A stretch of 64,000 nt of DNA, taken from assembly GCA_036387335.1 (NCBI GenBank), contig DASVTZ010000109.1, forward strand, positions 1-64,000, given 5' to 3'. Within the stretch, counting starts at the first letter, position 1. Each line of letters starts with the position of its first letter. A program made the position numbers and the translations under genes. Source of the stretch: Longimicrobium sp. GTDB taxonomy: Bacteria > Gemmatimonadota > Gemmatimonadetes > Longimicrobiales > Longimicrobiaceae. Below are positions 21,193-51,420 of the stretch, piece by piece. The notes beneath the pieces were generated by a model, which saw only the letters and a list, made by a program, of their open reading frames with translations, was not told the DNA's origin and made no database searches.

Positions 21193-21273
21193 AGGGCACA
21201 CCCAGGTCCACCGCTCCCCGGGCGCGCGGCCAGGCAGCGCCGCGTGCCCCTCACCGCCCGGGCAAGGACCTCC

Positions 21274-24177: not shown

Positions 24178-24365
24178 GATGGGGCCTCGCGGCGGGATGA
24201 AAGTGGATTTCGATGAAGGAGAGGGTCCTGGTGCGGCGAAGGGCCCGGGCAATAGTAATCCGCCGCGCCACCGGGGCGCAAAACAAATTCTGACGCGGAG
24301 AGGGTCATGCCGAAGGGAAGCCGGGGAGAGCTGCGGGGCGCGGCGCGCGCGTGGCGAGGCGCACC

Positions 24366-25712: not shown

Positions 25713-25792
25713 GCGCAGGAAGAAAGGGAGCACCGACAGGGAGGATTCAGGCCGACCATCCGGCTGAACTTCAATGAGGAGTGATGGTGACC

Positions 25793-26170
25793 ATGGCGAA
25801 GAAAAAGATCGTGGTAAACCTGGCCCTGCAGTCTGTCACCGCGTACGAGGGGGACAAAGTGGTCCGAGAGTGTGAGTGCGTCACGGGCGATTCGGATCAT
25901 CCCACGCCCAAGGGGGGGTTCTCGGTGAAGCTCAAATACAGGAAGTACACGAGCAGGAAGTACAAGGCACCGATGGACTATGCCATGTTCTTCACCAACA
26001 ACGGCGAGGCGCTGCACAAGTACCACGGCCGCGCGCCGTGGTGGATGCTGCGGGCCGGGAGAGCCCTGACCGACCAGGTGGGCTCGCACGGGTGCGTGCG
26101 GCTGCAGGAAGAAGATGCCATGGCGCTCTTCGAGTGGGCGGCGGAGGGCACTCCGGTCGAAGTGTTCTAG
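25793..26170 (+). CDS. YkuD-type L,D-transpeptidase, putative T6SS cargo
   Basis: A 125-aa minimal L,D-transpeptidase catalytic domain: HPTPKGGF at 36-43, KYHG with His78, and GSHGCVRL with Cys101, the complete YkuD signature. These enzymes form 3-3 crosslinks or exchange peptides in peptidoglycan. There is no signal peptide, so Sec export is unlikely; T6SS delivery is a reasonable inference given its place between tssK and tssL. AGG and AAG codons and lower GC (for example around 25930-25970) set it apart from its neighbours. A GAGGAG Shine-Dalgarno at 25776-25781 suits ATG 25793; ATG 25784 is the alternative. No immunity gene is adjacent. Confidence 0.8.
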   Translation: MAKKKIVVNLALQSVTAYEGDKVVRECECVTGDSDHPTPKGGFSVKLKYRKYTSRKYKAPMDYAMFFTNNGEALHKYHGRAPWWMLRAGRALTDQVGSHGCVRLQEEDAMALFEWAAEGTPVEVF

Positions 26171-26336: not shown

Positions 26337-27074
26337 ATGGTCACCACGCTCGATCCTCCCGTCCGCGCCGCCCCCTCGCCCGTACGCCCGCGCCGGGGCG
26401 AGCTGGCGCTGGCGCTGCAGGAGGCGTTCACGGCGGCCGTGCGCCTGCGCACCCACCGCCAGCGCCCCAGCGACGCCGACACCTTTCGCGCACAGGTCAA
26501 GCACCTGCTAGCCCTGGCCAACCGCGACGCCACGCAGGCCGGCTACGACCCGCGATCCGTGAAGCTGGCGCTGTACGCGTACGCCGCCTTCCTGGACGAG
26601 TCCGTCCTGGGCTCCGGCGAGCCCGCGCTGGCCGGGTGGGCGCGCCAGTCGCTGCAGGAGGAGGTGTTCGGCGAGCACATGGCCGGCGAGACCTTTTTCG
26701 CGCACCTGGACGACCTGCTGGCGCGGCAGGACAGCGACGAGACGGCGGACGTGCTGGAGGTCTTTCTCCTCTGCCTGCTGCTCGGCTTCCGCGGCCGCTA
26801 CGCGGGCACCAACGGGGGCGCGCTGGACGCGCACGTGCGCGCGGCGCGGGAAAAGGTGGAGCGCATCCGCGGCGGGCGCGAGCCGCTGTCTTCCCTGTGG
26901 CCGCTCCCGGCGGACGAGGCCGTGCCGCTGGACCACGATCCCTGGGTGCCGCGGCTGTGGCGTGCCGCGGCCGTGGCGTGTGCCGTCGCCGTGCTCCTGT
27001 TCCTGGCCTACCGGCTGTCGCTGGGCTCGTGGGTGGGCGAGATCCGCTCGCTCGCGGCGCTCTCCGCCCGCTGA
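26337..27074 (+). CDS. tssL: T6SS membrane-complex protein TssL (DotU/IcmH)
   Basis: An inner-membrane protein that docks the baseplate and partners TssM. The 245-aa product has the DotU cytoplasmic helical domain (LALALQEAFTAAVRLR, VKLALYAYAAFLDESVLGS, WARQSLQEEVFGEHMAGETFF, LEVFLLCLLLGFRGRYA, all family hallmarks) and a single C-terminal membrane segment (RAAAVACAVAVLLFLAYRLSL). It has no OmpA/peptidoglycan-binding extension, so anchoring to the wall must come from another protein. It precedes tssM by 40 bp. Confidence 0.95.
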   Translation: MVTTLDPPVRAAPSPVRPRRGELALALQEAFTAAVRLRTHRQRPSDADTFRAQVKHLLALANRDATQAGYDPRSVKLALYAYAAFLDESVLGSGEPALAGWARQSLQEEVFGEHMAGETFFAHLDDLLARQDSDETADVLEVFLLCLLLGFRGRYAGTNGGALDAHVRAAREKVERIRGGREPLSSLWPLPADEAVPLDHDPWVPRLWRAAAVACAVAVLLFLAYRLSLGSWVGEIRSLAALSAR

Positions 27075-27114: not shown

Positions 27115-30100
27115 ATGAACCAGAACCGGCCCTGGCTCGTCGCCTCCGGCGTCTTCGTCTTCTTCGCCATGCTCGCAAGCTGGGCCGGCCGGCTGACGGG
27201 GGCCACGGGGCGTGACCTGTGGATCCTGCGCATCGGCCTGGCCCTGCTGGGCGCGGCGGCGGCCGTGCTGGCCGGGATGTTCCTGGCCGCCCGCGCCCGC
27301 CGCGAGCCCGCCCCGGCGGAGAGGGAGGCCGACGACGTGGGCGAGGCGCTCGCCGCCGCGCAGCAGCGGCTGGCCGGCAGCGCGCTGGCGGGGGGATCGC
27401 GGATCTCGGGGCTCCCCGTGGTGCTGGTGCTGGGGCCCGCCGGGAGCGCCAAGACCTCCGCCGTCGTCCACTCGGGCGTGGAGCCGGAGCTCCTGGCGGG
27501 CGAGGTGGAGCGGGCTGGCGCCGTGGCACCCACGCGGACGCTGAACGTGTGGTACGGGCGCGAGACCGTGTTCCTGGAGGCCGGCGGCGCCATGCTGGAC
27601 GACGAGCCGCGCTGGGCCCGCCTCGTGCGCCACCTGCAGCCCACCCGCATGGCCGCCGCGCTGGGGCGGGGGACGCAGGCGCCGCGCGTGGCCGTGGTCT
27701 GCTTTCCCTGCGACGCGTTCCATCAGCCCGGCGCCGTGGACGCCGTCCCCGCCGCGGCCAGGCGGATGCGGGCGCGGCTGGCGGAGCTGGCCGGGGCGCT
27801 CGGGGTGCGGCTTCCCGTGTACGTGCTCTTCACCCGCGCGGACCGGCTGCCGTACTTCGCCGAGTACGTGCGCGGGCTGTCGCGCGACGAGGCGCAGGCG
27901 GTGCTGGGCGCCACCTTTCCCGCGGCGGACCCGCCGGGCGCCGGGCTGTACGCCGAGTTCGCCGCGCGCCGCGCCGGCGACGCGCTGCGCTCCCTGGCCC
28001 GCTCGCTCTCCGTCGCGCAGCTGGACCTGCTCCCGCGCGAGCCCCGCGAGCCGGCGCGCGCCGGGGCGTACGAGTTTCCGCGCGAGCTGCGCAAGGTGTC
28101 TGACCTCGCCACGCAGTTCCTGGTGGAGCTGTGCCGCCCCAGCCAGCTGAACGTGAGCCCGTTTCTGCGCGGCTTCTACTTCACGGGGGTGCGGACGGTG
28201 GTGGCGGAGGACGGGCCCGCGCCGTCCGCCACCGCCGCGTCGGTGGGAGGGCAGGTGGCGCTGGGCGCTACCTCCGTCTTCGACCCCCGCCGCCTGCGCG
28301 AGATGGCGTCCGCGCCGGCGCCCGCCCGCGGCGCCGCGCGCGAGGTGCCGGAGTGGGCGTTCGCGCGGCGCATCTTCAACGACGTGATCCTGCGCGACCG
28401 CGTGGCCATGGCGGCCACGGGGGGCGGCACGCGCGTCAACGCCCTGCGCCGCGGGCTGGCGGCGGCTGCGCTGGCCGCGTGCGTGATCTTCGCGGGCGGG
28501 TTCACCGTTTCGTACCGGAACAACCGCGTGATGCTCTCCGGCGCCCTGGCCGCCGCGCGCGAGGCCCGCGATGCCCCCGCGGATCCCGCGTCGCTGGCGC
28601 AGGCGGAAGCCCTGCGGCGGCTGGACGCGCTCCGCGCGGGCGCGGCGACGATGGCGGCGTACGAGCGCGAGGGCGCGCCCCTGCGGATGCGCTGGGGGCT
28701 GTACGCGGGCCACCGGGCGTTCCCGTCGCTGCGGCGCGTGTACTTCGAGAGCTTCGACCGGCAGCTCTGGGCGCGCACCCGGCCGCGCCTGGTGCAGACG
28801 CTGCGCGCGCTGCCGGAGGCCCCCACCGACGCCAGCCAGTACGGCGCTACGTACGACGACCTCAAGGCCTACCTGGTGACGACCACGCATCCGCGGTACG
28901 GCAGCGCCGCATTCCTGGGGCCGGTGCTGGACCGGCACTGGGCGGACCGGGGAGAGGCGGACCCGGAGCGGCGGGCGCTGGCGCGGCGGCAGTTCGAGTT
29001 CTTTGGGGCGGAGCTCCCCCACGGCAACCCCTTCGCTCCCGCGCCGGACGAGGCGCTGATCGTGGAGAGCCGCGCCTTCCTGGGCCGCTTCGCGCAGGCG
29101 GAGCGCTTTTACCGCGCGATGCTGGACGAGGCGGGCCGCCACGCCCGCGCCGTCGACTTCGGCGCGCTGTACCCGGCGGCGGCCCCGGTGGCTGCGGCGC
29201 CGCACGTGGTGCCCGGCGCCTTTACCCGCGAGGGATGGGCGTACGTGCGCGGCAACGCCCGCGCGGTGGAGCGGCTGTTCGCCCGCGAAGACTGGGTGCT
29301 GGGACCCCAGGCCGTGGGCGCGGAGGACCGCGTGCGCATCGGCCGCGAGCTGCAGGCGCGCTACGTGGCGGACTACGTGGCCCACTGGCGCACCTTTCTG
29401 GAGGCGGCGCGGGTGCACCCGTTCGGCGGATTGTCCGATGCGGCGGCAAGGCTCGGCCCCCTTTCGGGGAACGACTCTCCCGTGCTGCAGATCCTCTCCC
29501 TTGCCTCGCGCCACACCTCCATGGACTCCGTGCGGCTGGGCCCCGCATTCCAGCCCGTGCACCAGGTGGCCCCGGCCGCGGCGGACCGGGTGGCGGCGGA
29601 GGGGACGGCGGCGTACGTGGTGGCGCTGGGCGGGCTGCGCAGCGCCCTGCAGCTGGCCGCCGCCACGCCGCCGGAGCTGCGCGGCCCGCCGCTGTCGCAG
29701 GCCGCGCAGGCCGCGGGGCAGGCGGACGGAGAGGTTCGTAAGCTGGCGCAGGGGTTCCGCATCGACGGCGAGGCCGCGGCGGTGGGCGCCGCGGTGCAGC
29801 GGCTGCTGCGCACCCCCATCGACGGCGCACAGCGGGTGGTGACCGGCGCGGTGGGCGCCCTGCCGCAGCCAGGCGACCAGGCCGCCGCCGCCGCGGCAGC
29901 GGCGGCGGACGCGGCCGCTGCCCCCGTCGCCGCCGCGGCCCGGGACTTCTGCTCCGCGCTCAACCGGCTGCGCGCGGGCTTCCCCTTCCGCGGCGGCGGG
30001 CGCGACGCGGCGGTGGACGATCTGGCCGGCGTGTTCCAGCCGGGCGCCAGCGCCCTGGCGGAGCTGCAGCAGGCCGTGCAGCCGCTGGTCTCGCGCCAGG

Positions 30101-30609
30101 GGCCGCGCTACGTGGCCCGCACCGGCGCGTCGCCGCGCCCGGGGAGCGGATTCCTGGGCTCCCTGGGCCGCGCGGCGGAGCTGTCACGCGCCCTGTACGG
30201 CGACGACGGGTCCGCGCCCCGGGCGGACTTCACCCTGCGCGCGCACACCTCCGCCGCGGTGCCGGAGGTCACGGTGGTGCTGGATGGAAAGACGCGCCGC
30301 TTCACGCGCACCCTGGCCGCGTCGGAGTCGTTCACCTGGCGCGCCTCGGACGCGGGCGGCGCCCGCCTGGTGGCGCAGGTGAACGGCGAGGACGTGGTGC
30401 TCGCCGAGGCGAGCGGACCGTGGGCCGCCTTCCGCCTGTTCCGCGGCGCGTCGTGGCAGGACGCAGGCGACGGGCGGTACGTGGTGCGCTGGCCCCTCCC
30501 CGGGCAGCCGTCGCCCCTGTCCGCCGACGTGGTGTTCGCCGGCGGCGTCCCCGTCTTCAACCCGGACTACCTCGCCCGGGTCACCTGCGTCCCCCGGATC
30601 GGCCAATGA
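27115..30609 (+). CDS. tssM: T6SS membrane-complex protein TssM (IcmF)
   Basis: The large inner-membrane subunit that spans the periplasm. The 1164-aa protein has two N-terminal membrane helices (WLVASGVFVFFAMLASWAG; ILRIGLALLGAAAAVLAGMFLA), a cytoplasmic NTPase-like domain with intact Walker A GPAGSAKTS at 107-115, and a third helix near residue 445 (LAAAALAACVIFAGGFTVSY). A long periplasmic region ends in a beta domain (VTVVLDGKTRRFTRTL, VRWPLPG). Length is normal. The stop TGA overlaps the ATG of the next lipoprotein gene (ATGA), indicating tight coupling. Confidence 0.96.
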   Translation: MNQNRPWLVASGVFVFFAMLASWAGRLTGATGRDLWILRIGLALLGAAAAVLAGMFLAARARREPAPAEREADDVGEALAAAQQRLAGSALAGGSRISGLPVVLVLGPAGSAKTSAVVHSGVEPELLAGEVERAGAVAPTRTLNVWYGRETVFLEAGGAMLDDEPRWARLVRHLQPTRMAAALGRGTQAPRVAVVCFPCDAFHQPGAVDAVPAAARRMRARLAELAGALGVRLPVYVLFTRADRLPYFAEYVRGLSRDEAQAVLGATFPAADPPGAGLYAEFAARRAGDALRSLARSLSVAQLDLLPREPREPARAGAYEFPRELRKVSDLATQFLVELCRPSQLNVSPFLRGFYFTGVRTVVAEDGPAPSATAASVGGQVALGATSVFDPRRLREMASAPAPARGAAREVPEWAFARRIFNDVILRDRVAMAATGGGTRVNALRRGLAAAALAACVIFAGGFTVSYRNNRVMLSGALAAAREARDAPADPASLAQAEALRRLDALRAGAATMAAYEREGAPLRMRWGLYAGHRAFPSLRRVYFESFDRQLWARTRPRLVQTLRALPEAPTDASQYGATYDDLKAYLVTTTHPRYGSAAFLGPVLDRHWADRGEADPERRALARRQFEFFGAELPHGNPFAPAPDEALIVESRAFLGRFAQAERFYRAMLDEAGRHARAVDFGALYPAAAPVAAAPHVVPGAFTREGWAYVRGNARAVERLFAREDWVLGPQAVGAEDRVRIGRELQARYVADYVAHWRTFLEAARVHPFGGLSDAAARLGPLSGNDSPVLQILSLASRHTSMDSVRLGPAFQPVHQVAPAAADRVAAEGTAAYVVALGGLRSALQLAAATPPELRGPPLSQAAQAAGQADGEVRKLAQGFRIDGEAAAVGAAVQRLLRTPIDGAQRVVTGAVGALPQPGDQAAAAAAAAADAAAAPVAAAARDFCSALNRLRAGFPFRGGGRDAAVDDLAGVFQPGASALAELQQAVQPLVSRQGPRYVARTGASPRPGSGFLGSLGRAAELSRALYGDDGSAPRADFTLRAHTSAAVPEVTVVLDGKTRRFTRTLAASESFTWRASDAGGARLVAQVNGEDVVLAEASGPWAAFRLFRGASWQDAGDGRYVVRWPLPGQPSPLSADVVFAGGVPVFNPDYLARVTCVPRIGQ

Positions 30610-31127
30610 ACGCCCTTCGCTCCCTCCGCGCCCCGTTCCTGGCGCTGCTCTGCGCGGCCGCGTGCGGCGGCCCGCCTCCGTCCCCGCAGGCGCCCCCGCC
30701 TCTGGGCCTCGTCCCCGCGGCCTCGCTGCTGTACGACGACGACGCGGGCGGGCTGCGCGACTCGCTGCGGCTGGTGGTGCGTGCCCCCGCCGGGCTGGAC
30801 AGCCTGTGGCGCCGCGCCACCGCCGGCCAGCCCGCGCCCCCGCCGCCGCCCGCCGTGGACTTCGGCCGCGAGATGGTGCTCGCGGTGGCCGCGGGGCGGA
30901 TGACGCCCAACGACCGCATCCGCGTGGACAGCGTGGGCGTGCGGCGCCTGCCCGGCGCGGATGGGCGCATGCGCGAGGTGCTGGCCGTCCTGGTGCGGAC
31001 CGTCGAGGCGTGCGAGCGCTACACCGCCGCCGCGTATCCCAGCCAGGTGGTGCGGCTGCGGCGCTTCGACGGCCCCGTGGTCTTCGTGGAGCGGCGCGAG
31101 CGCGCGGAGGGCTGCGCGCGTGAGTGA
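30606..31127 (+). CDS. Small lipoprotein coupled to tssM, candidate TssJ analogue
   Basis: A 173-aa predicted lipoprotein: FLALLCAAACGG is a signal with a lipobox-type Cys about residue 19. The mature part has a beta-rich domain (VDFGREMVLAVAAGRMTPNDRIRVDSVGV) reminiscent of PrcB-type domains. It is not recognisably TssJ/SciN. However, it overlaps tssM by 4 nt and is the only lipoprotein in the membrane-complex operon, which is where TssJ, the outer-membrane anchor of TssM, is expected. A functional stand-in for TssJ is inferred from position and size. The stop overlaps the kinase start. Confidence 0.65.
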   Translation: MNALRSLRAPFLALLCAAACGGPPPSPQAPPPLGLVPAASLLYDDDAGGLRDSLRLVVRAPAGLDSLWRRATAGQPAPPPPPAVDFGREMVLAVAAGRMTPNDRIRVDSVGVRRLPGADGRMREVLAVLVRTVEACERYTAAAYPSQVVRLRRFDGPVVFVERRERAEGCARE

Positions 31128-32880
31128 GTCGGGCGTGCTGGGCCCGGGCGCGGCGGACGCGGGTCTGGTGGGCACGGTGCTGGCCGGGCGGTACCGCATC
31201 GTCCGGAAGCTCGGCGAGGGCGCCATGGGCGCCGTGTACCTGGGCGAGCACCTGCGCATCGGCCGGCGCGACGCCATCAAGGTGCTGCGCCCGTCGCTGG
31301 CCGCGGACCCGGAGGCGATGGCCCGCTTCGCCCGCGGCGCCCGAAACGTGTGCGCCATCCAGCATCCCAACGTCTGCACCGTGTACGACTTCAGCGACAC
31401 GGAAGACGGGCGGCGCTTCCTGGCGATGGAGTTCGTCCCCGGCGAGACGCTCCAGGACCTGCTGGCGCGCGAGGGGCGGCTCTCTCCGGTCCGCGCCGTG
31501 GCCATCGCCGCGCAGGTGGCGGGGGCGCTGCAGGCCGCGCACGACGCGGGGATCGTGCACCGCGACCTCAAGCCGGGCAACGTGATGGTGAGCCCCGGGC
31601 GCGGCGGCGCGGACGCGGTCAAGGTGGTGGACTTCGACATCGCCAAGGGCTCGGCCGAGGGGCAGGGCGGGGAGGTGACCCGGCTGGGCTTCGTCATCGG
31701 CACCCCGGAGTACATGAGCCCCGAGCAGCTGCTGGGGATGACGCTGGACGGGCGCAGCGACGTGTACTCGCTGGCCCTGGTGCTCTTTCGCATGCTGGCG
31801 GGGGCGCTCCCCTTTCGCGCGCAGGACACGCAGGAGCTGATGGTGCAGCGGCTTACGGGAACTCCCCTGCGGCTGCACGAGGTGCTCCCCGCGCTGCGCG
31901 TGCCCCCGGCGCTGCAGGACGCCCTGGACCGCGGGCTGCAGCGCCGCGCGGAAGACCGTGTTGCCAGCGCGGCCGAGTTCTCCGCCGCCATCACCGCCGC
32001 CGTGGCGGACGCGCCGTCCCACGCCGCTCCGCCGGCCCCCGTGCCGGACGCGGGGCGCGGGGCGTGGGGATTCACGCGGGGCGGTGTCGCCGCGACGGTG
32101 CTCACCCCCGACGGCGCACCATCGCCCGCGACGACGCAGGCGCGCCGCGCGGTCCCTCTCGCTGCGGGCCGCGGGGCGGCGGGGGTGCTCGCCCTGGCGC
32201 TGCTGCTGGGCGGCGCCTGGGGGATCAGCCGCTTTCTCGGTCCCCCGGACGCGGACGCCGCCGCCTCCGGAACACCCGCGCCCGGCGCCGCGTCGGCTGC
32301 CGTGGCGGGCCTCACCGATCCCACGGCGCATCCCGTTTCGGCGGCGCCAGTCGATTCCGCCGCCACCGCCCCCCGCATGAGCGACTCGACGCGTATCGGC
32401 CCATCCAGCGCCGCCGCGGCGCCCCTCCTCGATCCGCCCGCGACGAACGGCCAGAGGGAGCGGACGGCGAATGGGCAGAAGGCAGCGAATCGGGTGGCGG
32501 AGGAGGAGCAGGGACTCGCGGTGGACGATCCGCGCGCCGAGGTGCCGGCGCCGGAGCCGCCGGCGCCGCGCGAAGGAGGGCTGGCGGCGGAGAACGCGCC
32601 CGCCGTGCTGGGCCGTCTCTCCGTGCGGATGGGTGACCTGTCACTCTCCGGGGGGCGGCTGCGCGCGGTGGCGGACTCGGCGAGCGCGGTGTGGCGGCTG
32701 GGCGATGCGCTTCCTGACCGGCAGCGCGCCAACGCCGCCTACCTGCTGGGGACGATCGCCTTTCGCGAGCAGGACTGGGGCGGGTGCGTGCAGTGGCTGG
32801 AGCGCTCGCTGCAGCTCAACCCCGGCTCGGCCGGCCGCGCCCGCATGATGCTGGACCGCTGCCGGGAACGGGGCGGGTGA
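31120..32880 (+). CDS. T6SS-linked Ser/Thr protein kinase (PpkA-type)
   Basis: A 586-aa transmembrane kinase. The Pkn2-like catalytic domain covers about residues 25-290: Gly loop GEGAMGAVYLG, VAIK-type Lys in DAIKVL, HRDLKPGN with Asp149, and GTPEYMSPEQ. The DFG motif reads DFD (VVDFDIAKG), a mild variant that keeps the metal-binding Asp. A Pro/Ala-rich segment precedes one membrane helix (GVLALALLLGGAWGISRFL, about 350-370). The C-terminal extracytoplasmic part ends with a TPR-like pair (YLLGTIAFREQDWGGCVQWLERSLQLNP). GTG 31120 overlaps the lipoprotein stop. With the next phosphatase and the FHA protein it forms the PpkA/PppA/Fha threonine-phosphorylation switch known to post-translationally activate some T6SSs. 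Confidence 0.9.
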   Translation: MSESGVLGPGAADAGLVGTVLAGRYRIVRKLGEGAMGAVYLGEHLRIGRRDAIKVLRPSLAADPEAMARFARGARNVCAIQHPNVCTVYDFSDTEDGRRFLAMEFVPGETLQDLLAREGRLSPVRAVAIAAQVAGALQAAHDAGIVHRDLKPGNVMVSPGRGGADAVKVVDFDIAKGSAEGQGGEVTRLGFVIGTPEYMSPEQLLGMTLDGRSDVYSLALVLFRMLAGALPFRAQDTQELMVQRLTGTPLRLHEVLPALRVPPALQDALDRGLQRRAEDRVASAAEFSAAITAAVADAPSHAAPPAPVPDAGRGAWGFTRGGVAATVLTPDGAPSPATTQARRAVPLAAGRGAAGVLALALLLGGAWGISRFLGPPDADAAASGTPAPGAASAAVAGLTDPTAHPVSAAPVDSAATAPRMSDSTRIGPSSAAAAPLLDPPATNGQRERTANGQKAANRVAEEEQGLAVDDPRAEVPAPEPPAPREGGLAAENAPAVLGRLSVRMGDLSLSGGRLRAVADSASAVWRLGDALPDRQRANAAYLLGTIAFREQDWGGCVQWLERSLQLNPGSAGRARMMLDRCRERGG

Positions 32881-33794
32881 GCGCACAGGCGGCGGTCCGG
32901 CCCACGGTGCGCGCCACCCTGTTCGCCCTGACGCATCCGGGGCTCCGGCGCGGCGAGAACCAGGACAGCTTCCTGGTGGCGGACCTGGGCGTCCCCACGG
33001 GGGAGGGGCCGTGGTGGGTGAGCACCGACCGGGACGAGGTCTCGGGGGCGCGACGCTTCGAAGTAGGCCCGCGCGGGCTGCTGGCGGTGGTCGCGGATGG
33101 AATGGGCGGGGCGGCGGCCGGCGCGCTGGCCAGCCGGCTCGCCGTCGCGGAGATCTACGGCGCCATGGCCACGCGCTGGACGGCGGACCCGGACCACTCG
33201 CCCGGCCGGTTCGCGCGATGCCTGTGCGATGCGGTGCATGCCGCCAACGCCGTGCTGCACGCCCACGCCCGGCGCGAGCCGGAGTGCGAGGGGATGGGCA
33301 CCACGGCCACCGTGGCCGGGATCCTGGACGGGTGCGTGTACCTGGCCCAGGTGGGCGACTCGCGCGCGTACCTGGTGCGCGGCGGGCGCGCGGTGCAGCT
33401 CACCCGCGACCAGTCGCTGGTGCAGCAGCTGATGGACCGCGGGGCGATGACGGCGGAGCAGGCGGAGGCCAGCGGGCTGGGAAGCGTCCTGCTCCAGGCG
33501 CTTGGGCCCGAGCCGCGCGTGGAGGTGGACGTCACCCGCCAGCCCGTGCGCCGCGGAGACGTGCTGGTGCTGTGCTCCGATGGCCTTTTCCGCGTCGTCG
33601 GCCCGGAGGCGCTGGCCGAGGCGGCGGCTCGAGAGCCGGACCCCGCCGCGTTCTGCGCCGCACTGCTGGACGCGGCGCTGGCCGGCGGCGCGCCCGACAA
33701 CGTGACGGTGATCGCCGCCGTCCTGGATGGCCCCGGCCTGGACGACGCGGCGGACGGTGACCCGGCCGGATGGCTGCCGTATTCCCTCGCCTGA
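32877..33794 (+). CDS. PP2C-type protein phosphatase (PppA-type)
   Basis: A 305-aa cytoplasmic PP2C phosphatase. Motifs in order: RRGENQDS, VVADGMGGAAAG (metal-binding Asp), TTATVAGILDGCVYLAQVGDSRAYL, LVLCSDGLF, and GAPDNVTVI near the end, all canonical. It should counteract the kinase immediately upstream, whose stop it overlaps by 4 nt (GTGA). Length is slightly above minimal PppA because of an insert after the NQD motif (about 25-50). Confidence 0.94.
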   Translation: MSAQAAVRPTVRATLFALTHPGLRRGENQDSFLVADLGVPTGEGPWWVSTDRDEVSGARRFEVGPRGLLAVVADGMGGAAAGALASRLAVAEIYGAMATRWTADPDHSPGRFARCLCDAVHAANAVLHAHARREPECEGMGTTATVAGILDGCVYLAQVGDSRAYLVRGGRAVQLTRDQSLVQQLMDRGAMTAEQAEASGLGSVLLQALGPEPRVEVDVTRQPVRRGDVLVLCSDGLFRVVGPEALAEAAAREPDPAAFCAALLDAALAGGAPDNVTVIAAVLDGPGLDDAADGDPAGWLPYSLA

Positions 33795-33918: not shown

Positions 33919-34467
33919 ATGCCAGCTAAGATACAGATCGTGATCACCGGAAAGGGCAAGGGCAACACGTTCGTCGTTCCGTATAGCCATACGGCGGGAC
34001 TGCAGATGGATGCAAACACTGGGAAGCCGGTCATCTACAAGGTTCCATGGTATGAGGTGAGGATCGGCGGAGGAGGTGCCTACCGCGCGGTTCGCTTCGG
34101 GCTCCAGAACAAGGGCCATGCGCCGCCTCCCGCTTTGCGCGCCTGCGACGCGGGACTTTCGTCGGGCCGCATCTGCACTCCCATGTGGGTTCCCGGGTAC
34201 AGCCCGCACAGCTTCGCGGGCGGGTCCAGGACTGGCGCGTGGCGCCTGCTGCCAGGCAAAGGCTTTCTCATCCACGAGGGCGCCGATGGCGCCAAGGGGC
34301 AAGTTGGGGGTTCGCTGGGATGCGTGGAGATCCTGGACGGGGGGTGGAACGCGTTTCTGGGCGAGCTCGAGAAACTCGGCGGCGACTCGTGCGCGTCCCT
34401 CGGCGCGGCGGGAAAGGTGAGTGTTAAGATCGAGGCGGCGTCGTTCCCGGTCGCTACCCTCGTCTAG
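33919..34467 (+). CDS. L,D-transpeptidase-like putative T6SS effector
   Basis: A 182-aa protein with a third, divergent version of the L,D-transpeptidase active site: GKGFLIHEGAD with His119 and GGSLGCVEI with Cys135. The N-terminal 90 residues are unrelated to the other two copies and contain Cys75 and Cys86. No signal peptide is present. It is preceded by a 124-bp gap with a GGAAGG Shine-Dalgarno and followed 14 bp later by the FHA-protease gene. It is less GC-rich than its neighbours. A T6SS-delivered peptidoglycan enzyme is inferred. There is no adjacent immunity gene. Confidence 0.6.
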   Translation: MPAKIQIVITGKGKGNTFVVPYSHTAGLQMDANTGKPVIYKVPWYEVRIGGGGAYRAVRFGLQNKGHAPPPALRACDAGLSSGRICTPMWVPGYSPHSFAGGSRTGAWRLLPGKGFLIHEGADGAKGQVGGSLGCVEILDGGWNAFLGELEKLGGDSCASLGAAGKVSVKIEAASFPVATLV

Positions 34468-34481
34468 GCACTGCGTTGACA

Positions 34482-35765
34482 ATGCCCGCCGAGCTCCACG
34501 TCCTGAACGGAAACCGTGCCGGGCTGGTGCTGGCGCTGGACACCGCCGGCTGCACCGTGGGCCGGCACCCCGGCTGCTCGCTGCGCTTCGGCGCGGACGC
34601 GGACGGGGTTTCCGCCCGACACGCGCGCCTCCTGCCGGATGGCGCGGGGTGGATCGTGCGGGACCTGGGGAGCACCAACGGCACCTGGCTCAACGGCCGG
34701 CGCGTCCGCGGCGACGCCGTGCTGCGCGACGGAGACCGCATCGCGTTCGGGAAGTCCGGGCCGTCGGTGGAGCTTCGCCTGCCAGGCGCCGTCCGCGTAG
34801 CGACCCCGGTTAAGCCGGAGCCCCGCGCCGTCCGTCCGCGGCACCCGTGGGCCGTGGGCGCAGGAGCCGCCTGCGTGCTGCTGGCTGGCACCGCCGCCGT
34901 GCTCGTGGCCCGCCGCCCCCCGGCGGCCGCGATGGCCGAGGCACGCGCCTCCGCCGTCGGGACCGGGCTGCGCCCCGCGCTGTCTTCCGCTGCGCCGGCC
35001 GCGCCCCGGCCATCCGCCCCGCGCCCTGCACCGGCTGTTTCCGCATCCGCCGCGCCCCGTCCATCCCTTCCATCATCGCCTGGCGCAACCGCACGCCACC
35101 CTTCGGCGAAGCGTGCGCCAGCGGCAGTCATCAGGGCGCGGCCGGAATCAGCCTCTGTGCAGGCGCAGGCGCCCCGCCGTGCGCTCCTGGTGGACCGGCT
35201 GAATCGGCTGGCGGTGGCGCGCATCTACGTCGAGTCGGAAGACGGTGAGGTGGCGACGGGGACGGCGTTCGCCGTGCGCGCGGACGGAACGCTGGCCACC
35301 AACCGCCACGTGGTGGGGGGCAGTCCGCGGCGCATCGCCGTGCAGTTCACCGGGTCCACGCAGGTGTGGCGCGCGCGCGTGGTGGCCGTCTCCGGCGCAT
35401 GGGACCTGGCCCTCGTCAAGGTGGACGACGTCGAGGGCGCCGTCCCCATCGTGCGCGGCCTGAACCTGCGTCCGGACACTCTGGCGGCGGGCGCCCCCGT
35501 GGCGCTGGCCGGCTTTCCGCGCGGCGGGGAGCCGGTGGAGGGCGCCGTGATCCGGGCGACCGTGGTGCAGGCGGAGCTGGCGGGCGTGCGGGGCGGGCGG
35601 GTGGAGGTCTTCGCGCGTTCCGGCGTGGGGGCCAGCGGAAGCCCCCTCTTCGATGCGGACGGCCGGGTGATCGGCATCCTGTTCGGCGGAAGCCCCGGCG
35701 CCGCGCGTCCCATCCTCTACGCCGTACCCGCCTCCGCCCTGTCGCAGCTGCTGGCCGAACGCTGA
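34482..35765 (+). CDS. FHA domain fused to a trypsin/HtrA-like serine protease
   Basis: A 427-aa single-pass membrane protein. The N-terminal FHA domain (about 1-100) shows GRHPGCSLRF, SARHARL and GSTNGTWLNGRRV, the phospho-threonine-binding signature. A membrane helix follows at about 125-142 (VGAGAACVLLAGTAAVLVA), then a Pro/Ala/Ser linker (about 145-230) and a trypsin-like protease domain with an intact triad: His276 (TNRHVVG), Asp308 (WDLALVKV), Ser385 (GASGSPLFD). The FHA part should read the kinase's phosphorylation in the cytoplasm; the protease would be extracytoplasmic. T6SS Fha proteins normally lack a protease, so this fusion is unusual. I see no clear Shine-Dalgarno for ATG 34482. 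Confidence 0.88.
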   Translation: MPAELHVLNGNRAGLVLALDTAGCTVGRHPGCSLRFGADADGVSARHARLLPDGAGWIVRDLGSTNGTWLNGRRVRGDAVLRDGDRIAFGKSGPSVELRLPGAVRVATPVKPEPRAVRPRHPWAVGAGAACVLLAGTAAVLVARRPPAAAMAEARASAVGTGLRPALSSAAPAAPRPSAPRPAPAVSASAAPRPSLPSSPGATARHPSAKRAPAAVIRARPESASVQAQAPRRALLVDRLNRLAVARIYVESEDGEVATGTAFAVRADGTLATNRHVVGGSPRRIAVQFTGSTQVWRARVVAVSGAWDLALVKVDDVEGAVPIVRGLNLRPDTLAAGAPVALAGFPRGGEPVEGAVIRATVVQAELAGVRGGRVEVFARSGVGASGSPLFDADGRVIGILFGGSPGAARPILYAVPASALSQLLAER

Positions 35766-35803: not shown

Positions 35804-36067
35804 TCAGGAGTCCCGCTTTGAAGTGTCGAAGGGATACTTCGCCAGGATACGCTTCTGCACCTTCTCCAGTGCGTCGTGGTTCCCGTGCGCATCCACGATC
35901 TCGTCGAGCACGTCCAGGAACCACTCCTTCGGCTCGAGTTCGTGAATTCCGCGGAGAAGAAACATCAACTCGTGCTTCGCGCCGGGAATCGCCATCTCGT
36001 TGCTGGCGGCGGCATGGAGCTGCACGAGGGCGCTGCTCACGGGGTCCCAACCGGGGCGGCCGCTCAT
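35804..36067 (-). CDS. Small hypothetical protein (87 aa)
   Basis: I do not recognise this acidic, helical 87-aa protein (SALVQLHAAASNEMAIPGAKHE, ELEPKEWFLDVLDEIVDAHGNHDALEKVQ). Its ATG overlaps the stop of the upstream CsgG/FlgO-like lipoprotein gene by 4 nt, so the two are translated together. It has no signal peptide or membrane segment and is probably cytoplasmic. Confidence 0.7.
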   Translation of the reverse strand: MSGRPGWDPVSSALVQLHAAASNEMAIPGAKHELMFLLRGIHELEPKEWFLDVLDEIVDAHGNHDALEKVQKRILAKYPFDTSKRDS

Positions 36068-36813
36068 CCTTCCTCGATCTGCCGAAGTGCCTCGCGGGCC
36101 TCGGTGTAGTCGGGAAAGCGCTGCACGAGCTGCCGGTACAGCTCCACGGCCTCCGTCTGGCGGCCGTTGTCCTGGTGGTCCATGGCAAGCGACAGCAGCA
36201 TCACCGCCTCGTCGGGCATGTTGCGCTCGCGGCGCTCCCGCTGCGTGGCCTGGGCGAGGGGCGGCAGGTCCACCCCGCGGACGATGCGGTCGGCCAGGTC
36301 CACCATCAGCCGGTACAGGTTCTCGCGGCGCTGGTTGTCGATGCGGACGGTGCGGAGGATCTCGCCCGTCTCCACGTCCACGATGCGCCCGTCCAGCCTG
36401 AAGTTGCCGTACAGGTCCATGAACGTGCCGGTGATGGCGTACCGCGCGCCCACCAGCCGCCCCACGCGTGCCGCCGTCCCGGGGTCCACCCGGCCCGCCG
36501 TGCCCAGGTCCTGCTCGGCCAGCGTTTCGCGCAGGATGCCGCGCTCCACGATGCGCAGCTGCGGGTTCTGCTGCAGCTCGGTGAGCAGCATCCCCTGGAT
36601 ACCCACCTCCAGCGCCGACATGTCCTCTCGCCCCGGCCCGTACGACCCGCCGTTGGTGAAGGGGAACACGGCGATCCCCGGCGGCGCCTGTGCAGGCACG
36701 CGGGTGGACGCTGGCTGCGCCGCGGAGATTCCTGCCGCATCCACGACGTGCGGCGACGTGGCGGGAGCCTGCAGACAGCCGGCGAGCGCGAGCGCGATGA
36801 GTGGCTTGAGCAT
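36064..36813 (-). CDS. CsgG/FlgO-like lipoprotein with C-terminal TPR
   Basis: A 249-aa predicted lipoprotein: LIALALAGCLQ has a textbook lipobox (LAGC). The CsgG/FlgO-type domain covers about 45-170: GIAVFPFTNGGS, LLTELQQNPQLRIVERGILRETLAEQDL, VDPGTAARVGRLVGARYAITGTFMDLYGNFRLDGRIVD. A TPR-like end follows (EAVMLLSLAMDHQDNGRQTEAVELYRQLVQRFPDYTEA). It shares the central domain with the 17096 gene, including the VERA/VERG...ETL and VDP.TAAR.GRLVGA blocks, and both are preceded by the same GGGCAG dyad. Function at the envelope is unknown. Confidence 0.82.
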   Translation of the reverse strand: MLKPLIALALAGCLQAPATSPHVVDAAGISAAQPASTRVPAQAPPGIAVFPFTNGGSYGPGREDMSALEVGIQGMLLTELQQNPQLRIVERGILRETLAEQDLGTAGRVDPGTAARVGRLVGARYAITGTFMDLYGNFRLDGRIVDVETGEILRTVRIDNQRRENLYRLMVDLADRIVRGVDLPPLAQATQRERRERNMPDEAVMLLSLAMDHQDNGRQTEAVELYRQLVQRFPDYTEAREALRQIEEG

Positions 36814-40363: not shown

Positions 40364-41131
40364 TCACTCGTGCAGGCAGGATGCGACGCCCTCCAGCCGC
40401 TCTACCCGCCGTTCCAGCGCCCGGACGACGCTCGCATCCGCGCTGTCGGCGGGTTGCAGGAACGACTTCGCGATGTAGCCGGTAAAGGTTCCGAACAGCC
40501 CGACGCCCACCGTCATGAGGAGCGCGGCGATTACGCGGCCTTCGGTGGTCACCGGCACCCGATCGCCGTAGCCCACCGTCGCGATGGTGGCGTACGCCCA
40601 CCAAACCGCGTCCGCGGCGGTCCGGATGCTGGCCCCGGGCGCGTCCCGCTCCACGTGAAGGATCGCGACCGACGAGAACACCAGCACCAGAAACGTCAGC
40701 AGCGCCATCCCCCAGAACGCCGCGCCCGCACGGGTGCTGCGGATGAAGGCGCCGAGATGCCGCGCGGACCTGCAGCCCCGGAGCACGCGGACGACGCGGA
40801 CCATCCGCGCCACACGCGCGAACCGCAGCGCGTCCAGCATGGGGATGCTCGCGACCAGGTCCAGCCACCCCCACCGAAGGTACTCCATCTTCCGGTCCGC
40901 GCGGATCAGGTTCCGGAAGAAATCCAGGAGGAACACCAGACAGATCACGTTGTCCGCCGTGTCCAGCACCTTTCTGCTCTCCGGGTCCAGCGGGAGCACC
41001 GTGGACGCCACCAGCGCGGCCAGCACGTACACGCTGAGCCCGAGCGTGAACAGGTCGTACAGCGCGAGCCTTTCGGGCTCGGAAGCAGTCATCGCTGATG
41101 CTGAAGCTCGGCGGACGGAGTGCCGGTTCAT
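40364..41131 (-). CDS. Voltage-gated-type K+ channel (ion_trans family)
   Basis: A 255-aa six-helix channel. S1 is LYDLFTLGLSVYVLAALVAS; S4 carries spaced arginines (RFARVARMVRVVRVLRG); the pore helix and filter are AVWWAYATIATVGYGDRVPV with the K+-selective TVGYGD at about 184-189; S6 is GRVIAALLMTVGVGLFGTFTGYIAKSF. A short C-terminal coiled coil (VVRALERRVERLEGV) probably tetramerises it. ATG 41131 overlaps the stop of the upstream 684-aa gene (ATGA), so it is translationally coupled to the stator/cytoskeletal operon; ATG 41092 is an alternative start without that overlap. It could be the membrane-potential effector of that operon or simply its last gene. Confidence 0.9.
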   Translation of the reverse strand: MNRHSVRRASASAMTASEPERLALYDLFTLGLSVYVLAALVASTVLPLDPESRKVLDTADNVICLVFLLDFFRNLIRADRKMEYLRWGWLDLVASIPMLDALRFARVARMVRVVRVLRGCRSARHLGAFIRSTRAGAAFWGMALLTFLVLVFSSVAILHVERDAPGASIRTAADAVWWAYATIATVGYGDRVPVTTEGRVIAALLMTVGVGLFGTFTGYIAKSFLQPADSADASVVRALERRVERLEGVASCLHE

Positions 41132-43182
41132 CCACCGTCGGCCAGCGCCGCGATCTTGAGCACGAGGTCGTCCGACGATCCCGCGGCGAGGCCTTGGACG
41201 AGTCCGGCTGCCAACTCGGGTTCACGGAACGCCCGCTGCGGGGCAGCGAGCCAGGCGACGAAGTCGTCCCATTCCCGCGGCGCGCCTTCCGTGGGCGACA
41301 CGGCGAGCAGATCCAGGGCGTACATCGCGAACAGTGCCGCCTCGGTTTCGCGGCTGGAGGGCGTTTCGGAGGTTTGGGACGGGTGCGGCGGGACGCGGCC
41401 GAGGCGGTCCAGCGGGGGGATGCCGGGAGGCAGGAGGCGGTACGGCCTTCCGAGCAGGGTGCCCAGCGGGGCGGCCAACGCCACCGCGTGCAGTGCGCCA
41501 GGCTCGGCCACGCGGTAGCCGATGGTGGCGGGGTGGTATAGACCCAGGCCGAGATCGAAGGCCGAGAGATCGCGCCAGAGCCGCGCGGCGGCGACGACCA
41601 GCGCGCGGGGATCGTGGTCGCGCCAGGCGCGCAACGGGGCGGAGGACGCGAGGGGGAGGGCGGTCGGCGGCGCGTAGAGATAGCCGGTCCCCTGCATGGA
41701 GCGGCCGAGGCAGCGCGGCGAGCGGGCCGTCGTGCGGGTTTCCAGGGCGCGGAAGAAGGCGTGCTCGTGCCGCACCGCGCGCTCTCCGGCCTCGGTGGTG
41801 GCGGTGCGCAGCCAGCCGTGCGTCAGGTCGCTCAGGGGGAGCGGCACCACCCGTGTCTCCCAGCCGAACGCCTTGTCGGTCCGCACCGGCTTTCCGGCCG
41901 CGAGCACCGCGTCGGAGGCGGCGGTGGCGGAGGGGGAGAGGATGCGGAGGGACGACCGCTTGTGGCGCGGCAGGCGCTCCCAGGCGGGTGAGCTTCCCAC
42001 ACGCAGCGCGCCCCGCGACACGACCTCGGCCAGCCACCGGTCGGTGGTGATGCGGGCGAAGGGGACGATGAACGCCGGGGTGGCGGTCTCCAGCCAGTGG
42101 CCGCCTACGTCGGCGGGGAGGTCGAAGAGAGGGCCCGCCCAGGCGTCGGGCGCAAGGGTCACCGCGTCGGCGCCGGGCGGGATGGCGGCCACGCATTCGG
42201 CCCGAGCGCCGACGCGCACGCCGCGCCCCCGCACCTGCACGGGCCATCCTTCGCCCATGCGGATGAGGACGTAGGGGCCGAAGAGCGGGACGACGTACAG
42301 GGTGGATGCGGGCGCGGTGTTGCGAGTCTCCGCTGGTTGTGGCGGGGCGGGGGAGGGAGCCCGGTTGCGCGATGCGTGGCGGAGCAGGACGCCCCACGCA
42401 TCGAGATCGGCGACGGCGGGCGCGTGTCCCTCGTCCACCAGCGCCACGGACTCGCGCGCGGCCATCTCGTCCAGCGCGGGGGCCGGGCGCGCCGCTCCCG
42501 AGTGGCCGCGCAGACGCTCCAGGTGACGCGCGGAAAGCATCCGCAGCGCTCCAGGCTCGGAGGGGGCCGGGCCTTCCGCACGGCTGGCCTCCTCCACCGC
42601 CGCGGCGAGCTCCGCACGCGACACGCCTTCGGGCCAGCGCTTCACCTCCAGCGGCTCGTCCAGGTGCGCGGGCAGGCGGCGCTCGGCGGCGGCGAGATCT
42701 TCCTCCACCCGTTCGAGTCGCGCGCGGTGGGCCCGCACCCACGCCGTTTCGCGGGTGCGGAGTCCGCCCTGGTCCACGCCGGCCGTTTCCAGGGCGCGCG
42801 CCAGGTGCCAGGGCAGGCGCTCGGCGAAGCGGTCGCGGAGGCGGCGCAGCACGCGTTCGAACTCGGCCGCCGAGTCGTGGCGCTCGATGGCGCGGGTGGC
42901 GCGCCCTCGCACCGCGTTCCAGGCGTGGTCGAGCGACCTGCGCGCCAGCCCGCCGGCGGCGAGATCGGCGCCCCGCCGCGTCAGCGCGCGTCGCAGCGGG
43001 CTCCTGGCGCCGTCCAGGAAGCCGGTGAGGGCCGCGGCCGATGCGGCGAGCGCGGGGTCGGCGCCGCCGCGCTCGCCGATCCCGGCCAGGAGCGCGCGGG
43101 CCTCCGACTCCACGCGAAGAAGGTGGCGGCGCGCCTCGTCGGACACGTCGAGGCGGCCGCGCAGGGCGGTGTCGGTGGTCAC
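41128..43182 (-). CDS. Large hypothetical protein of the stator/cytoskeletal operon
   Basis: A 684-aa protein I do not recognise. The N-terminal 200 residues are Arg/Glu-rich helices (RHLLRVESEARALL, HDSAAEFERVLRRLRDRFAERL, RARLERVEEDLAAAERRL). The rest is mixed, with beta-rich blocks (LYVVPLFGPYVLIRMGEGWPVQVRGRGVRV split around residue 290) and a C-terminal helical part with LWRDLSAFDLGLGLYHPATIGYRV that faintly recalls a degenerate kinase C-lobe. There is no signal peptide or membrane helix. GTG 43182 overlaps the MotB/ZorB-like stop by 4 nt, and the stop overlaps the channel start by 4 nt. Position suggests a cytoplasmic component between motor and output. Confidence 0.8.
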   Translation of the reverse strand: MTTDTALRGRLDVSDEARRHLLRVESEARALLAGIGERGGADPALAASAAALTGFLDGARSPLRRALTRRGADLAAGGLARRSLDHAWNAVRGRATRAIERHDSAAEFERVLRRLRDRFAERLPWHLARALETAGVDQGGLRTRETAWVRAHRARLERVEEDLAAAERRLPAHLDEPLEVKRWPEGVSRAELAAAVEEASRAEGPAPSEPGALRMLSARHLERLRGHSGAARPAPALDEMAARESVALVDEGHAPAVADLDAWGVLLRHASRNRAPSPAPPQPAETRNTAPASTLYVVPLFGPYVLIRMGEGWPVQVRGRGVRVGARAECVAAIPPGADAVTLAPDAWAGPLFDLPADVGGHWLETATPAFIVPFARITTDRWLAEVVSRGALRVGSSPAWERLPRHKRSSLRILSPSATAASDAVLAAGKPVRTDKAFGWETRVVPLPLSDLTHGWLRTATTEAGERAVRHEHAFFRALETRTTARSPRCLGRSMQGTGYLYAPPTALPLASSAPLRAWRDHDPRALVVAAARLWRDLSAFDLGLGLYHPATIGYRVAEPGALHAVALAAPLGTLLGRPYRLLPPGIPPLDRLGRVPPHPSQTSETPSSRETEAALFAMYALDLLAVSPTEGAPREWDDFVAWLAAPQRAFREPELAAGLVQGLAAGSSDDLVLKIAALADGG

Positions 43183-43841
43183 CGGCGCATCTCCACGCAG
43201 GCGTCGCGGCGGCGGCGCTGCACGCTGTCGCCGGGAAGCTGCGGGCGGATCTCCAGCTCGATGCGGCGGTCCGCGGGGTCGGCCTCGGCGCCGGCGCGGG
43301 CGCGGTCGGGACGCACCGGGTAGTAATGGCTGCGCCCCAGCGCCGACACGCGGCAGGCGGGGACGCCGGCGCTGTCGATCAGAAAGAGCGCCACGGTGGC
43401 GGCGCGCGCCGCGCTCAGCTCCCAGTTTCGCTCGTCGCTCCCCTCGCTGCTGGTATGCCCGACCACCTGCACCTGGTCGATCTCGTTCACCAGGCCCCCG
43501 TGCAGGAAGCGCCCGAAGTCGTGGAGGATCGCCCTTCCTTCGGGCTTGAGGCGGGCGAGCGCGTACTCGTTGCGGGGAAAGGTGGCCTCCTCGGCGATGC
43601 GCACCAGCACGTAGTCTCCCACGCGCTGCACGGCTACGCGCCGGTCCGCGGCCCCGGCGAGCGCGGCTTCGATGCGCGCCAGGTTCGACGCCTGTGCATC
43701 CGCCTGGCCCGCGCGCTGGATGGCCGGCACCGCGAGCGCCGCGAAGAGGATCAGGAAGAGGAGGGTGGTGGCGGCCAGCAGGTCGGCGAACGCCGGCCAC
43801 GGGCCGCCATCGCCCTCCTCTTCTCCCATGCCGTATCGCAT
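43179..43841 (-). CDS. MotB/ZorB-like stator subunit with OmpA-type domain
   Basis: A 220-aa protein. One N-terminal membrane helix (about 17-41) carries Asp20 in WPAFADLLAATTLLFLILFAAL, matching the proton-binding Asp position of MotB and ZorB. A short coil follows, then an OmpA/MotB peptidoglycan-binding domain (about 95-205): VQVVGHTSSEGSDERNWELS, AARAATVALFL and VSALGRSHYYPV. In MotB and ZorB this domain anchors the stator to the wall while the Asp conducts H+. It pairs with the MotA/ZorA-like gene 3 bp upstream. Compared with flagellar MotB it is short and has no plug region that I can see. Confidence 0.85.
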   Translation of the reverse strand: MRYGMGEEEGDGGPWPAFADLLAATTLLFLILFAALAVPAIQRAGQADAQASNLARIEAALAGAADRRVAVQRVGDYVLVRIAEEATFPRNEYALARLKPEGRAILHDFGRFLHGGLVNEIDQVQVVGHTSSEGSDERNWELSAARAATVALFLIDSAGVPACRVSALGRSHYYPVRPDRARAGAEADPADRRIELEIRPQLPGDSVQRRRRDACVEMRR

Positions 43842-43844
43842 CCG

Positions 43845-45641
43845 CTAGCTCCCGAAGCCGAGGAGTGGGAGCAGGGCCCGGACGCCCACGTAGAGCCCGT
43901 ACGCCAGCCCCAGCGCGGCGAGGGTGCCCGCGGCCTGCGACAGGGCGAGCTGCACCCGCGTGGGGCCGCTCTCCCGCTCCAGCGTCCCCGCGATGCGGCG
44001 CAGCAGGGCGCTCACCTCCGGATCGCGCCCGTCGCCCTGGTACGCGGTTACGGGGGCGCGCTCCGAGGCGCGGGCGGCGGCTTCCCGCAGCGCCTCGACG
44101 GCCGCGGAGAGGCGGCCGTTGACGCTCTCCGCCGCATGGGCCCACGAGGCGGCGGCGCGCTCGTCCACGCCGGTCACGCGGTCGGCCACCTGCTGCAGCA
44201 CCTGCTCCACGGTGCCGATGGCGGGCTGCGCGCGGCCTACCGCTTCGGCGACGGCTTCCATGCGCGCTACCACGGCTTCGCTGCCCTCGCGCAGCGCGGC
44301 GATCGTCTGCTGGACGCCGGCGGCCGTGCGCTCGGCGCCGGCCTGGTATCCGCTCAGGGAGCCGAGCGCATCGTGCAGCGTGACGGCGCTCTGCCGCATC
44401 AGCTCGATGCCCTGCTCCGAGGTGCGGGAGCGCTCCTCCACCGTGTCCACGATCCCGTGGTAGGCCCGCGCGACGCCCTCCACCGTCCCGGCGAGGTCGC
44501 CCACGCGGCGCTGCAGCTCGCGCAGCTCGCTCCCGGTCTTCTCGTGCAGCGCCTCGTCCTGCTGCGCGGTCAGCTCCACCAGGCGCTCGTTCAGCCGTTC
44601 GAACGCCTCGTGGAAGCTCTCCGACAGCCCATTCATCCCCGACTCGAGCCCCTCGATGGCGCGCCCCGTGTCTCGGACGGACGAGGCGGTCTCGCGCAGC
44701 TCGCGGACGGCTTCGGTGAGCGGATCGACCGAGCCGCCGCCGTGCAGCCCACCGTAAAGGAACTCGGTGGAGACCAGCTCCAGCCGCTCCAGCAGGTTGC
44801 GGCGCCCGGTGGCCAGCCCCTGCGCCATCAGCCCCACGGCGATGGCGCCCACCAGCGCCAGCGCATTGCCCCCGAAGGCATCGGCCACCGCGCGCAGCGG
44901 CGCGGCGATGTCGGCGCCGCCCGGCTGCGCCCCGCCCGTCTGCGACACCGCGTCGATCAGCCCGGGGAGCGCCGTCTTTACGCCGGCGAAGGTGCCCAGC
45001 ACGGCCAGCAGCAGGAGGAGCGACGAGGCGTAGCGCGCGAACACGCCGTACCGCGCCGTGCGCGTCTCCGCGATCCCGCGCAGCTCGTCGGGCGAGACGC
45101 GGAGATAGGGGTCGTGTGCTTTCTCCAGGATGCGCCGCACGCGGTCGTCGATCAGCGTCTCTACCTGCCCGCCCGCCTCGGCCGTGTACTCGCGCTCGCC
45201 GCCGCGGAAGAGCGACTCGCGCCGCGACGCGGGGGCAAACACCAGCCCGAGCCCCTCGCGGCCGTGCAGGTGGACCCACTCGACGTCCTCCTCCTCGCGG
45301 GCCATCTCGGCGCGGTCCTGGTGCACGGTCCACAGGGCCCCGCCGAACAGCAGGATGCCGAGCGCGATCAGCCCGGTGAGGGCGTAGTTCGGTTCCGGGC
45401 CGAGGCCCATGAGCTCGCCGATCGCCCCCAGCAGCGTCCCCCTGGCGCGTGCGAGGAGCACCCCGAACAGGGCCGTGCTCGCGACCAGGTAGAAGATGAC
45501 CCCCAACCATTCGTAGACGGCGGCCGACCGGTTCCCGCGCGGCGGCAGGGCCAGCCGCCCCAGCGTCTTGGGCGGCGCGGTGGGGAGCGGCGGCGGAGCT
45601 GGCGTCGTGTCGGGCGGCGGGGCGGAGATCGTATCGGTCAT
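43845..45641 (-). CDS. MotA/TolQ/ZorA-like stator subunit with long coiled-coil tail
   Basis: A 598-aa membrane protein. Helices at about 41-64, 86-107, 203-226 (ASSLLLLLAVLGTFAGVKTA) and 259-278 (ALALVGAIAVGLMAQGLATG) give the MotA/ExbB/TolQ core, with the LGTFAGV motif at 215-221. A long, nearly continuous coiled coil of about 270 residues follows (300-565; LTAQQDEALHEKTGSELREL, VEERSRTSEQGIELM), and a final hydrophobic segment (577-595). The stator core plus long cytoplasmic tail is the layout of ZorA of the Zorya anti-phage system, though the extra C-terminal membrane helix differs. ATG 45641 overlaps the upstream stop by 4 nt; the frame upstream of it is a shadow. Confidence 0.83.
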   Translation of the reverse strand: MTDTISAPPPDTTPAPPPLPTAPPKTLGRLALPPRGNRSAAVYEWLGVIFYLVASTALFGVLLARARGTLLGAIGELMGLGPEPNYALTGLIALGILLFGGALWTVHQDRAEMAREEEDVEWVHLHGREGLGLVFAPASRRESLFRGGEREYTAEAGGQVETLIDDRVRRILEKAHDPYLRVSPDELRGIAETRTARYGVFARYASSLLLLLAVLGTFAGVKTALPGLIDAVSQTGGAQPGGADIAAPLRAVADAFGGNALALVGAIAVGLMAQGLATGRRNLLERLELVSTEFLYGGLHGGGSVDPLTEAVRELRETASSVRDTGRAIEGLESGMNGLSESFHEAFERLNERLVELTAQQDEALHEKTGSELRELQRRVGDLAGTVEGVARAYHGIVDTVEERSRTSEQGIELMRQSAVTLHDALGSLSGYQAGAERTAAGVQQTIAALREGSEAVVARMEAVAEAVGRAQPAIGTVEQVLQQVADRVTGVDERAAASWAHAAESVNGRLSAAVEALREAAARASERAPVTAYQGDGRDPEVSALLRRIAGTLERESGPTRVQLALSQAAGTLAALGLAYGLYVGVRALLPLLGFGS

Positions 45642-51415: not shown

Positions 51416-51420
51416 CTCGC

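Follow-up and report, generated by a model that had tools for sequence, protein, structure and literature searches.

A membrane-anchored FHA and HtrA-like protease fusion at the Fha position of a type VI secretion operon in the order Longimicrobiales

What is a serine protease doing at the place in a type VI secretion system (T6SS) operon where a phosphothreonine-binding Fha protein would be expected? In the T6SS phospho-switches known so far, the signal stays on the cytoplasmic side: Fha either binds a phosphoprotein or is itself one, and brings in components (PMC10482370). In A. tumefaciens, PpkA phosphorylates TssL at Thr14 and Fha binds phospho-Thr14 (PMC3953482), while in P. aeruginosa, S. 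marcescens and A. citrulli it is Fha itself that is phosphorylated (PMC10482370; PMC12607579). The question is raised by a stretch of 64,000 nucleotides from Longimicrobium sp. (the whole of which is referred to here as the window), in which an FHA domain, a membrane helix and a trypsin-like protease domain are encoded by one gene at the end of a T6SS operon. The features of this locus are listed in Table 1.

Table 1. Features of the FHA-protease fusion and of the T6SS operon that encodes it (window positions).
Feature	Position	Strand	Basis or remark
Second TssK copy of the cluster (two in all)	24351-25712	+	
TssL (DotU)	26337-27074	+	
TssM (IcmF)	27115-30609	+	
Conserved lipoprotein between TssM and kinase, invariant Cys20	30606-31127	+	
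Membrane Ser/Thr protein kinase, PpkA-like position	31120-32880	+	HRDLKP; one transmembrane helix near 343-361
PP2C-type phosphatase, PppA-like position, Stp1-like	32877-33794	+	
Small gene between phosphatase and fusion	33919-34467	+	L,D-transpeptidase-like His...Ser-x-Gly-Cys motif
Fusion of FHA, membrane helix, Ala/Pro linker and HtrA-like serine protease, 427 aa	34482-35765	+	
FHA domain, residues 24-90	34551-34751	+	Pfam PF00498, E 4.8e-18
Lone transmembrane helix, residues 122-143	34845-34910	+	AlphaFold2 model, hydropathy, charge bias
Disordered Ala/Pro-rich linker, residues 162-230	34965-35171	+	pLDDT < 50
Trypsin_2 / HtrA-like protease domain, residues 260-399	35259-35678	+	Pfam, E 4.4e-19
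His276 codon, predicted catalytic	35307-35309	+	alignment with HTRA1
Asp308 codon, predicted catalytic	35403-35405	+	alignment with HTRA1
Ser385 codon, predicted catalytic (GASGSP)	35634-35636	+	alignment with HTRA1

The codon-position composition of the fusion reading frame was found to resemble that of the adjacent genes, and the FHA and Trypsin_2 matches both exceeded the curated Pfam cut-offs. An assembly error or chance read-through was ruled out, as the frame is single and unbroken and its full length is conserved. The AlphaFold2 model, which was built from a shallow alignment of seven sequences and has a mean pLDDT of 71, contains a beta-sandwich FHA domain, the membrane helix and a protease domain with pLDDT of about 90 in most blocks. 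In alignment, H276, D308 and S385 pair with the catalytic His, Asp and Ser of human HTRA1 (TNRHVV/TNAHVV, WDLALVKV/ADIALIKI and GASGSPLF/GNSGGPLV for fusion and HTRA1, respectively), and a Foldseek search placed the protease domain close to HtrA1 and DegS-deltaPDZ (E of about 1e-11, TM-score by target of up to 0.85). The original prediction had described FHA, helix and protease in one chain with an intact triad; open reading frame, Pfam domains and modelled helix agree on the first point, and on the second the letters are as claimed and the triad fits the HTRA1 alignment and the HtrA folds. No PDZ domain was detected in the fusion by Pfam scan, and the protein stops at residue 427 with the protease as its last domain.

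Residue conservation was assessed across 44 homologous fusions, often less than 40% identical. The FHA phosphothreonine-binding residues R28, S44, H47 and N66, together with G27 and G67, were invariant (44/44), as were H276, G383, S385 and G386 of the protease (44/44); the aligned position of D308 is Asp in 41 proteins and Glu in the remaining three, all of family f5. The GxSGSP oxyanion region is likewise invariant or nearly so. A degenerate protease is not supported by this pattern. One membrane segment was predicted in 43 of the 44 proteins, and a charge bias placing the N terminus (the FHA side) in the cytoplasm was seen in 36; in the fusion of one relative, G027, hydropathy prediction gave no convincing membrane helix. 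From the membrane segment and the charge bias, the protease is predicted to lie on the periplasmic side. The Ala/Pro linker is seen in the window and its congener G008, and in most relatives a coiled coil, judged by eye from the alignment, is predicted between membrane segment and protease.

In the window, the fusion closes a T6SS operon with the gene order TssK-TssL-TssM-lipoprotein-Ser/Thr kinase-PP2C-(small gene)-FHA-protease, and TssA, TssE, TssF, TssG, ClpV, VgrG and a further TssK are also encoded there. The cluster begins at the contig edge and TssC sits near the end of another contig; the sheath genes have therefore probably been separated by assembly. A membrane Ser/Thr kinase with catalytic motifs and its PP2C antagonist are thus both present at the locus; the kinase carries DFD in place of the usual DFG after HRDLKP, and its C-terminal tail gives a weak TPR match. 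The N terminus of TssL (MVTTLDPP) contains a candidate phospho-threonine. As N-terminal TssL threonines occur in T6SS loci both with and without the fusion, no phospho-site is diagnostic.

Several neighbouring genes were also noted. The lipoprotein matches no Pfam family; in almost every T6SS locus of the order its gene comes after TssM, it occurs as well in two T6SS loci of the class outside the order (G328 and G372), both without the kinase module, and it may be a substitute for TssJ or TssW. Two divergent TssK genes lie in the one cluster (21244-22626 and 24351-25712, forward strand), and both kinds co-occur in related clusters (e.g. L038, L183 and L188). Three small L,D-transpeptidase-like genes are present on the forward strand (8345-8803, 25781-26170 and 33919-34467), of which one is Tlde1-like, one is YkuD and the third, the small gene preceding the fusion, has only the H...SxGC motif; this last gene gave no Pfam match and no homologue in the T6SS loci of relatives. 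A large RHS-repeat protein with DUF6531 (10977-16277, forward strand), encoded downstream of VgrG, is likely T6SS cargo. Just past the operon lies a gene for a CsgG/LpoB-like lipoprotein with TPR (36064-36813, reverse strand), and another family has a similar gene close to a kinase that adjoins a T6SS (L177, 5696-6517). Further along are ZorB-like (OmpA/MotB) and ZorA-like genes (43179-45836, reverse strand), whose neighbours (41128-43530, 46444-49851 and 49853-51928) match no known Zorya partner and include a 1135-amino acid protein with a weak MreB/FtsA match; this locus is possibly an undescribed variant of Zorya-like defence.

The place of the canonical Fha protein was examined in 99 genomes of the order, comprising that of the window and 98 relatives. 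The C-terminal domain T6SS_FHA_C (PF20232) was absent from all 99, while the E. coli positive control was detected. Five further FHA genes are present in the window's genome, all outside the window, and no second, canonical Fha was found there by the PF20232 search. The fusion itself scored 40.6 bits against TIGR03354 (T6SS Fha/TagH), under the cut-off of 120.25. In its TssL-TssM-kinase-phosphatase-FHA operon, the fusion occupies the Fha position.

Within the order, the full-length fusion was found in 16 of the 99 genomes, distributed over three families, and TssM in 18, among them all 16 fusion carriers. The fusion was thus present in 16/18 genomes with TssM compared to 0/81 without (Fisher P =1.4e-16, uncorrected for ancestry); counted by genus, the figures were 9/11 and 0/35 (P =5e-8, likewise uncorrected for ancestry). 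In the two genomes with TssM and no fusion (G035 and G050), the T6SS contigs stop at or just past the kinase. An unbroken run TssK-TssL-TssM-lipoprotein-kinase-(PP2C)-fusion is seen in 12 genomes, the window's own among them, and most of the other copies are truncated by contig ends. PP2C is missing from three T6SS-linked loci (G016, G017 and G082), and in G082 the module lies on the TssM contig at more than 40 kb from TssM.

When the search was widened to 395 genomes sampled across the phylum, 143 matched the fusion family profile, mostly at full length, and 45 had TssM. These counts, together with the three families within the order, ruled out a strain-specific fusion. Outside the order, 127 genomes had the fusion, 27 had TssM and 11 had both, and in the T6SS loci read there no fusion was found beside TssM; one genome, G238, has both a T6SS and the module, with the module outside the T6SS locus. 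A T6SS-exclusive family was ruled out, as most carriers of the module in the class have it without a T6SS link. In 17 of the 17 T6SS-unlinked loci that were read, the module adjoins MurQ, usually as a zinc-ribbon FHA protein, kinase, PP2C and fusion, and mostly also with AnmK, gamma-glutamyltranspeptidase (Ggt) and Amidase_3, an assemblage of peptidoglycan recycling; two Gemmatimonadota examples are L159 (5677-14608) and L190 (5771-16937), in which FHA-zinc ribbon, kinase, PP2C and FHA-protease genes are accompanied by AnmK, MurQ, Ggt and Amidase_3. On an Acidobacteria contig, an FHA-protease gene adjoins PP2C and kinase genes. In the window's own genome, the relative order of Ggt-MurQ-AnmK and Amidase_3 is preserved but the module is missing; NagZ- and AmpG-like genes, assigned by eye, are present there too. 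The T6SS phospho-switch originally proposed for this locus is supported in part, namely in respect of the Fha position, the conservation beyond one strain (the 16 genomes in three families) and the intact residues; it had overlooked that the module is broader, and probably older, than its T6SS link.

In a maximum-likelihood tree of the 44 fusions, rooted at the midpoint only, the 16 T6SS-linked copies form one clade (100/100), which groups with a subset of the T6SS-unlinked fusions (100/98). Because the T6SS-linked copies form one clade, the recycling locus is kept without the module in the window's genome and the unlinked copies lie beside MurQ, the module of kinase, phosphatase and FHA-protease was probably cell-wall-linked and co-opted once into the T6SS of the order. 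The simplest account is that it left the cell-wall locus, joined the T6SS operon once and was thereafter retained only with T6SS in the order. As the module is mostly not T6SS-linked in the class and lies beside recycling genes, it would not be an invention of the T6SS; a general module would have been taken over once.

The reading preferred here is that the fusion serves as the Fha-position component of the threonine-phosphorylation pathway of the order's T6SS, an 'inside-out DegS' (probability roughly 0.55). By position and conserved residues it should read a phosphothreonine mark, and periplasmic proteolysis is the best reading of its predicted output; from these features we infer phospho-gating, a substrate and a positive effect on T6SS. 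The membrane kinase would phosphorylate a threonine on an inner-membrane or cytoplasmic component of the T6SS, for which TssL provides a precedent; the N-terminal FHA domain would bind this phospho-threonine in the cytoplasm, concentrating the membrane-anchored protease at the TssL-TssM complex; the protease, in the periplasm, would cut or trim a local target such as TssM, the lipoprotein, a partner in the cell wall or an assembly-blocking regulator; and PP2C would remove the mark. The module would have arisen as a cell-wall-linked system, with a single entry into the T6SS operon that dates to the ancestor of the order's T6SS. A more specific proposal is put forward tentatively: threonine phosphorylation in the cytoplasm would bring the inside-out DegS to the membrane complex of the T6SS, and its cleavage activity in the periplasm would there permit assembly or wall crossing, while the ancestral module would link a Ser/Thr kinase with the turnover of the cell wall.

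The T6SS is not necessarily the direct target of the module, which operates in its absence in most genomes of the class. The three T6SS-linked loci that lack PP2C, the distant module of G082, the unconvincing helix of G027 and the want of a diagnostic TssL threonine also tell against the preferred reading. The fusion may instead be mainly a protease of envelope or peptidoglycan homeostasis: the kinase would sense the state of the cell wall, the FHA-protease would trim periplasmic cell-wall enzymes, and a place in the T6SS operon would ensure wall repair or local opening as the apparatus crosses peptidoglycan, rather than provide an on/off switch. The recycling genes beside all 17 unlinked loci, the counts of fusion and TssM outside the order and the separate module of G238 are in favour of this alternative, which we nevertheless regard as rather unlikely: within the order the module never occurs without T6SS and is gone from the recycling locus of the window's genome, so that its role there depends on T6SS.

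It is a good deal less probable that information flows from outside in, with the protease sensing or binding a periplasmic ligand, the FHA domain merely tethering it to phosphorylated partners and proteolysis providing the membrane complex with constitutive quality control, as in DegS/DegP. HtrA proteases are commonly quality-control enzymes, and the nearest solved folds are of this type (HtrA1 and DegS-deltaPDZ), but neither a PDZ domain nor any other sensor follows the protease, and the cytoplasmic FHA domain is the sole recognisable binding domain. That the protease domain is a scaffold which has lost the ability to cut seems very improbable; sequence alone cannot prove activity and the three f5 homologues have Glu at the Asp column, but His, Ser and the oxyanion region have persisted through considerable divergence.

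Among known systems, one of the closest is Fha/TagH of the PpkA-PppA-Fha pathway (P. aeruginosa, A. tumefaciens, S. marcescens and A. citrulli), whose gene is similarly accompanied by those for TssL, TssM, a membrane Ser/Thr kinase and PP2C, and whose phosphothreonine pocket is conserved in the fusion. The fusion, however, lacks T6SS_FHA_C and has in addition an HtrA-like protease and a membrane-spanning helix, and its kinase/phosphatase/FHA set is related to a module that occurs independently of T6SS in the class. DegS and the DegP/HtrA family share with it a membrane-anchored N terminus, a single transmembrane segment and a chymotrypsin-fold protease, whereas the fusion is without PDZ and has a cytoplasmic FHA domain in place of periplasmic sensing; identity to its best structural matches (HTRA1) is only 25-27%. 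MarP-type actinobacterial membrane serine proteases also combine transmembrane segments with a trypsin-like protease, and residues 129-424 of the fusion are weakly similar to the NCBIfam MarP model (score 59.6, cut-off 250), but MarP has no FHA domain; its N terminus is multi-pass. An FHA-trypsin architecture was reported in 2008 for NP_811686.1 of Bacteroides thetaiotaomicron, where, as in the fusion, FHA is N-terminal to a trypsin-family protease; that protein has two FHA domains (FHA-FHA-trypsin), and the report concerned architecture only, with no kinase or T6SS link given (PMC2605481). No paper on a T6SS-linked FHA-protease fusion, on T6SS with HtrA/DegP or on the Gemmatimonadota module was found in the open-access literature searched. 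The fusion is filed as a variant within the T6SS threonine-phosphorylation pathway, outside the Fha/TagH sequence definition and without the PDZ domain of HtrA.

The fusion thus represents, across a whole order, a phospho-reader covalently tied to a protease that is predicted to lie across the membrane, with its catalytic residues kept. If this is true, bacterial Ser/Thr signalling would have a means of acting directly by proteolysis within the envelope. The family also offers a natural evolutionary comparison, in which one clade of the module is tied to T6SS and the rest is found at a cell-wall recycling locus.
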